Shown here one piece after another: positions 10,204 through 41,410 of a stretch of DNA of 64,000 nucleotides. The stretch covers positions 1 through 64,000 of the forward strand of contig CACMXJ010000006.1 of the NCBI GenBank assembly GCA_902617625.1. Direction: 5' to 3'. A program made the translations under genes and the position numbers. This DNA is from an uncultured Pelagibacteraceae bacterium. GTDB taxonomy: Bacteria > Pseudomonadota > Alphaproteobacteria > Pelagibacterales > Pelagibacteraceae. Position 1 is the first letter of the stretch, and each line of letters begins with the position of its first letter. The notes beneath the pieces were generated by a model, which was not told where the DNA came from, ran no database searches, and saw only the letters and a program-made list of their open reading frames with translations.

Positions 10204-10278
10204 GGGCCGTTAGCTCAATAGTAGAGTACTGCATTGACATTGCAGGGGTAGTTGGAGCGTAACCAACACGGCCCACCA
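10204..10278 (+). tRNA. tRNA-Val (anticodon GAC), with atypical D- and T-loops
   Basis: Cloverleaf: GGGCCGT/ACGGCCC acceptor, GCTC-AATAGTA-GAGT D arm, CTGCA-TTGACAT-TGCAG anticodon arm, GTTGG-AGCGTAA-CCAAC T arm, encoded ACCA. Confidence 0.88.
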
Positions 10279-12652: not shown

Positions 12653-13006
12653 AGCCAGATAAACGACTTATCGCTTTAAGAAATTAAAGAGGAAAGTCCG
12701 GGCTCCGCAAGGATACAGTGCCAGGTAATACCTGGCGGGGGCAACCCTAGGGATAGTGCCACAGAAAATAAACCGCCATAACATGGCAAGGGTGAAAAGG
12801 TGTGGTAAGAGCACACCGGTTATATTGGTAACAATGAACGCTGGAAAACCCCACTGGGAGCAAGACTAAGTAGAGGTGACATTGTTGAAAAACTAAAAGC
12901 CATCCTTGGCTAGTCACCTGGGTTAGTCGCTTGAGTTTGGAAGTGATTTCAAACCTAGAGAAATGATAGGTTTAAATGACAGAACCCGGCTTATAGTTTA
13001 TCTGGC
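12653..13006 (+). ncRNA. rnpB: RNase P RNA (bacterial class A); ends approximate
   Basis: Terminal pairing AGCCAGATAAAC/GTTTATCTGGC; GAGGAAAGTCCGGGCTCC, CACCGGTTATATTGGTAACAATGAACGCTGG, GACAGAACCCGGCTTATAG. Confidence 0.95.
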
Positions 13007-13084
13007 AGACTTTTCTAAATTTAACCATTAACAATTTATAAATAAATACTCTAATTTGCTTATCTAAGCCTTTAATTGTATCTA

Positions 13085-41106: not shown

Positions 41107-41350
41107 AAAGGGGCGTTCTGTTGCCAGGTGCCCCGAACCCCGTTTACTTAATTAACTAAGTTAATTAAGCAGCAAGTGCGTAACTTTCGTTAGCAATTAT
41201 AAATTAGCCCTTTACGGAGGAACAATTCCGAACGAAAGAATAGCCTTTAGTCACTCGTCGAATCTAGTTCACCCCCATAAGTTGTAAATGGTGGAGGTGG
41301 TGGGTACTGCCCCCACGTCCGCAATGGTTATTACGAAATTCGTTTATCGT
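41107..41350 (-). ncRNA. ssrA: Permuted two-piece tmRNA gene (acceptor piece 5', 12-nt intervening segment, coding piece 3'); outer ends approximate
   Basis: Minus strand: T arm GTGGG-GGCAGTA-CCCAC, CACCTCC-ACCA (41289-41316), spacer 41277-41288, then GGGGGTG...GATTCGACGAG (from 41276). Acceptor GGGGGTG pairs CACCTCC. Tag ORF 41165-41194 encodes ANESYALAA-stop. Confidence 0.93.
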
Positions 41351-41374
41351 CATAGTTGGAAATCCAACTTTATT

Positions 41375-41402
41375 AATATAAAAGGAATTGCTAGAGATTC
41401 AA
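41375..41402 (-). promoter_or_regulatory. Putative sigma-70 promoter of ssrA
   Basis: Minus strand TTGAAT (41402-41397), 16-nt spacer, TATATT (41380-41375), pointing toward ssrA. Confidence 0.55.
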
Positions 41403-41410
41403 TAACAATC

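Follow-up and report, generated by a model that had tools for sequence, protein, structure and literature searches.

The window (the whole 64,000-nucleotide stretch analyzed) carries a permuted, two-piece alphaproteobacterial tmRNA gene on its minus strand (41107..41406), called by ARAGORN as a permuted tmRNA with the tag ANESYALAA. A cmscan search of the window matched model RF01849 at 41406-41107 with 226.2 bits (E 2.9e-64), against a curated cut-off of 50, and the parts lie in the permuted order. Read directly on the minus strand, GGAC (41320-41317) precedes the T-stem strands GTGGG (41316-41312) and CCCAC (41304-41300), which enclose the T-loop GGCAGTA (41305..41311); the RF01849 and RF04321 alignments place the whole T-arm, GTGGG-GGCAGTA-CCCAC, at 41300..41316. 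The 3' acceptor strand with its CCA (41299-41289; CACCTCC at 41299-41293, then ACCA at 41292-41289) is followed by a short spacer between the two pieces that is presumably removed in processing (41277..41288), and then by the 5' acceptor strand GGGGGTG (41276-41270), the D-like loop AACTAGATTCGAC (41257..41269), and the tag downstream.

The contact between G18 and Psi55 is termed invariant in the tRNA literature (e.g., PMC6337575). The window tmRNA has A at position 18 (41265) and G at position 55 (41310) in place of this pair, and it keeps G19 (41264) and C56 (41309), which would still pair; the other T-loop positions are G54 (41311), A57 (41308), and G58 (41307), making 54/58 G/G. The same double substitution occurs in tRNA-Val(GAC) on the plus strand (10204..10278; ARAGORN; RF00005, 53.6 bits), with D-loop AATAGTA (A18 at 10220, G19 at 10221), T-loop AGCGTAA (10256-10262), and A54/U58. 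These readings (for the tmRNA, minus-strand letters 41311 to 41257) agree with the initial annotation, which had reported the change of both 18 and 55, with G19 and C56 kept, in both RNAs. An RNase P RNA (class A, 295 bits) lies at 12655-13009, approximately 2.4 kb from tRNA-Val.

The tmRNA loops had been described as unusual, and while the letters are correct, the form is the normal one for its family. The RF01849 consensus in the cmscan output contains GGGGCgGUACCC and uAGGAUCGACG, and is therefore already of the A18/G55 type, making the window tmRNA a typical member. It shares the gene order and tag region of the family as well as its consensus T-loop (GGCRGUA) and D-loop (UAGGAUCGAC); compared with its relatives, it has UAGAUUCGAC and is a weaker match (226 bits vs. 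up to 313), and otherwise nothing unusual was found. A changed T-loop is already on record for the Caulobacter tmRNA and for a mitochondrial one (PMC1168896).

Assignment of A18 depends on the register of the D-like loop. It could be argued that most alphaproteobacterial tmRNAs, with UAGGAUCGAC, have kept G18-G19 and merely lost one U, since a single gap aligns UAGGAUCGAC to UGGAUUCGAC and the stretch from the acceptor to CGAC lacks one base relative to E. coli. The window loop, however, aligns without gaps to those of 74 relatives, and in 17 of 74 two-piece tmRNAs, the window copy included, the base after A-G is A, C, or T (UAGAUUCGAC, CAGCUUCGAC, UAGUUUCGAC). The second G is thus not conserved, and the conserved unit is A-G rather than a shifted G-G. 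Moreover, A18 is unambiguous in tRNAs that share the T-loop change (AGTTAGTTA, AATAGTA), and we consider a register artifact very improbable. The identity of GGCAGTA as the T-loop, proposed initially, was borne out by the relatives, in which the 5-bp T-stem survives compensating changes (CCGGG/CCCGG, CAGGG/CCCTG, TCGGG/CCCGA, TGGGG/CCCCA, and GAGGG/CCCTC).

To place the window copy in its class, 385 alphaproteobacterial genomes and a further group of divergent or unmatched genomes were searched, and both loops were read in 75 two-piece tmRNAs. A18/G55 was found in 74 of these 75, spanning 40 families, in a tally made from tables for a sample that combines the 30 best-scoring matches with many of the weakest and is not a random draw; the 74 are also related and may stem from one old change, so the counts are not numbers of independent events. 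All 74 have G55-C56-R57. Positions 54/58 are mostly G/G (GGCRGUA, GGCRGAG, GGCRGAA), and the one tmRNA that combines T54/A58 with A18/G55 (TGCGATA; genome G060, locus L059) shows that the two pairs, 18/55 and 54/58, are separable. The sole two-piece exception (G036, L083) is G18/U55, with GTGGC-TTCGAC-GCCAC as its T-arm and AATTGGGATCGAC as its D-loop. The genome is a draft at 84% completeness and alone represents its order in the genome set, so that its G18/U55 may be either the ancestral state or a reversal.

A canonical-looking tmRNA T-arm with U55 was present in six genomes of the class. Five have the D-loop upstream, in the standard gene order, with G18, and were counted as standard-order tmRNAs; the sixth (G058) is cut short by the end of its contig. 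Sixteen of the 23 pattern matches to a U55 tmRNA arm were judged to be chance, being unlike a tmRNA T-arm. Independent variation of the two positions would speak against an alternative elbow pair, and no mixed 18/55 state was seen among the 74 A18/G55 and 6 G18/U55 tmRNAs read in the class. The consensus of the merged model RF04321 (cmscan), which also covers beta- and cyanobacterial tmRNA forms (PMC11915505), is canonical, and the two-piece arrangement alone seemingly does not force the swap. The distribution indicates that A18/G55 is class-wide, inherited, and old in alphaproteobacterial tmRNA.

The remaining tRNAs of the genome extend the pattern beyond the pair initially reported. A18/G55 occurs in 3 of the 26 tRNA genes found: along with tRNA-Val(GAC), it is present in tRNA-Phe(GAA), with D-loop AGGAGTA and T-loop TGCGAAT, and in tRNA-His(GUG), with D-loop AAATAGTA, T-loop AGCGTAA, and A54/U58. 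The tRNA-His gene (G000:C1:59670-59740, minus strand; L025:1501-1571) was recovered by covariance model after ARAGORN had missed it, and a first impression that tRNA-His was absent from three genomes was discarded on the same grounds; gene finders can miss such tRNAs. The Phe and His tRNAs are the only ones found for their amino acids, and the variant elbow therefore serves essential tRNAs.

Other genomes of the genus (G207, G297) agree on the A18/G55 tRNAs where read, and their tRNA-Val(GAC) D- and T-loops are the same. In the sister genus (HIMB114 included; G098), tRNA-Val(GAC) and tRNA-Phe are canonical, so that between the two genera both tRNAs differ at 18 and 55 alike, and A18/G55 is confined to tRNA-His. 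This tRNA keeps A18/G55 in both genera, with 54/58 being T/A in the sister genus vs. A/U here. The initially noted difference at 54/58 between tRNA-Val and tmRNA is real, and reflects a second pair that does not vary in step with 18/55. In genome G207, a tRNA-Met-like fragment (G207:C1:838387-838444, within L173, minus strand; 33 bits) covers model positions 8-63 only, without a matching acceptor stem, and is perhaps the remnant of an integration event.

Could positions 18 and 55 simply be drifting? The genome is small (1.03 Mb assembled, 92.6% complete), and an odd T-loop is found in tRNA-Thr(GGT) as well (G000:C1:64493-64563 and L168:4918-4991): in this genus it reads GTCAGTA (G54, U55, G58) with a GG D-loop, and so is G18/U55, and in the sister genus it is canonical. 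A relaxed elbow in these small genomes, with 18 and 55 changing without interacting, is nevertheless a reading to which we give hardly any credence, since mixed 18/55 states are almost absent, G19-C56 is intact, and the tmRNA state is kept in 40 families that include large genomes.

The scarcity of mixed states also holds for tRNAs at large. A narrow pattern limited to 7-8 base D-loops, and thus blind to longer ones such as that of the HIMB114 tRNA-His, located A18/G55 tRNAs in one genus among 250 genomes of the class and no A18/U55 tRNA; a lone G18/G55 match (G125, L112) was dropped, as ARAGORN called no such tRNA there. With 8-9 base D-loops and one genome per GTDB species, A18 plus G55 tRNAs were found at no fewer than 115 loci, and the matches listed include Patescibacteria, Elusimicrobia, Omnitrophota, Verrucomicrobiota, Planctomycetota, Actinomycetes, and others. 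Among the tRNAs at these listed matches that were not themselves selected by the pattern, 89 are A18/G55, 160 G18/U55, none A18/U55, and 3 G18/G55. The tRNAs in this tally share ancestry and often sit together in arrays, for which reason its Fisher value overstates the evidence, and positions 18 and 19 were assigned by applying a simple rule to the D-loop string. Loci L102-L105, in which no T-loop was located, do not enter the counts reported in this analysis. Among the same listed matches, 54/58 is T/A, A/U, G/G, C/C, or one of a few other states, and both A/U and G/G occur on either 18/55 background. The swap shared by the tmRNA and tRNA-Val had been attributed to tolerance in this lineage, an explanation that found no support: the tmRNA state is a class-wide inheritance, and the tRNA swaps are separate events, occurring in many bacterial phyla.

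Several listed loci in Verrucomicrobiota (Opitutaceae) and Planctomycetota are tRNA arrays in which nearly all tRNAs have G55 and most have A18 (L195, L262, L268, L247, L303, L232, and L252), for example 24 of 25 tRNAs in L232 and 15 of 15 in L262. The L303 array (L303:1699-6952) adjoins genes for an RtcB RNA ligase and an AAA ATPase, and this RtcB could repair cut tRNAs. In the array tRNA-Arg(TCT) genes (L195:4730-4805 and L262:5346-5421), D-loops GAACACATCA and GAACACATGA accompany the T-loop TGGAACT, which may represent a swap of G19-C56 to C19-G56.

Arrays that are almost wholly G55 invite an adaptive reading, in which U54 and U55 (and G18) are lost to evade a T- or D-loop modification or a base-reading enzyme, and the partner then compensates. 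U54 and U55 of E. coli tmRNA are modified (PMC3968760), as G54 and G55 cannot be, and G18 is the target of TrmH (PMC7912444). T54 is kept, however, in 161 of the 186 A18/G55 tRNAs among the matches listed, and avoidance of U54 methylation is thus not general; evasion of modification would in any case supply a reason for the swap rather than replace the pair. We regard this explanation as unlikely.

We instead favor, with a probability of roughly 0.75 for the reading as a whole, that the window tmRNA is an ordinary alphaproteobacterial two-piece tmRNA in which A18/G55 replaces G18/U55 and G19-C56 is intact; that 18/55 behaves as a single unit, commonly found in nature as either G-U or A-G, and 54/58 as a second unit with several states; and that the variant elbow is GNRA-like. 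The alternative pair proposed initially holds up in that 18 and 55 change together and 19-56 stays, and A18/G55 looks like a real second way of building the tRNA elbow. Whereas this coupled variation and its spread were observed directly, the geometry and function are what we infer from the sequences and from precedent. In the canonical loop, U55-C56-R57 would form the U-turn, with G18 lodged between 57 and 58 and contacting U55, as described for residue 18 of tRNA (PMC4810234). In the variant, G55-C56-R57 would form an equivalent GNR turn, a sequence that makes the U-turn in GNRA loops (PMC12550061), and the inserted A18 would contact G55 in the trans sugar/Hoogsteen manner by which the final A of a GNRA tetraloop touches its G. 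The elbow would then be a GNRA-like fold completed in trans, still capped by G19-C56, which would offer RNase P and the ribosome the flat face that they use. SmpB binding and the function of tmRNA depend on contact between the D- and T-loops (PMC3968760, citing Barends 2002).

The window T-loop has G-N-R at loop positions 2-4 (G55-C56-A57), and the coupled A18/G55 states fit an A that is inserted between positions 4 and 5 and would touch the G. Its 54/58 is G/G instead of the U-A closing pair of G55-type T-loops, and the window tmRNA would therefore work like this class rather than being a proven member of it. Loops with G54/G58 or A54/U58 differ from UGNRA, and their closing pair would need another geometry; T54/A58 accompanies A18/G55 in most A18/G55 tRNAs.

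Coupled 18/55 swaps in tmRNA and in the sole Phe and His tRNAs suggest another way to build the elbow, and the structural prediction that follows from the swaps is a sheared A18-G55. This genus and HIMB114 provide matched natural tRNA pairs for direct testing. It is tempting, though doubtful at present, to go further and see A18/G55 as a general second bacterial elbow, a GNRA fold in trans that evolved many times, became fixed in alphaproteobacterial tmRNA, and is standard in whole tRNA arrays of Verrucomicrobiota and Planctomycetota. If so, the array elbow might put a separate set of tRNAs beyond the reach of host modification or of enzymes that cleave tRNA. Our literature search returned no description of A18/G55 tRNAs or of a T-loop change coupled to A18; key older literature was outside its reach, and an earlier report is possible.

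Known RNAs offer structural precedents for the proposed elbow. Compared with the canonical tRNA elbow (G18-Psi55, G19-C56, T54-A58), the variant shares the 7-base T-loop, G19-C56, and purine 57, as well as, by assumption, the insertion of residue 18; it differs in having A18/G55 for G18/U55 and in allowing G/G or A/U at 54/58. In animal tRNA-Ala, too, the 54-58 pair is naturally replaced, there by A54/A58, but that study reports its unusual pairs as absent from bacteria (PMC7566577), whereas the A/U, G/G, and C/C pairs found here are bacterial. The T-loops of the FMN riboswitch (L2 and L5, UGAAA; PMC3764141) and the TPP riboswitch (UGAGA, which fits the UGNRA consensus; PMC2258182) have a GNR turn like that proposed for the variant. 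The FMN riboswitch loops also accommodate an A between the fourth and fifth T-loop residues (PMC3764141), where A18 is proposed to insert, and FMN riboswitch structures contain GNRA-like folds whose intercalated A comes from a different chain or strand (PMC12550061). Unlike these riboswitch T-loops, the elbow proposed here would join the D- and T-loops of a tRNA-like fold, and in the window tmRNA 54/58 is G/G rather than U/A.
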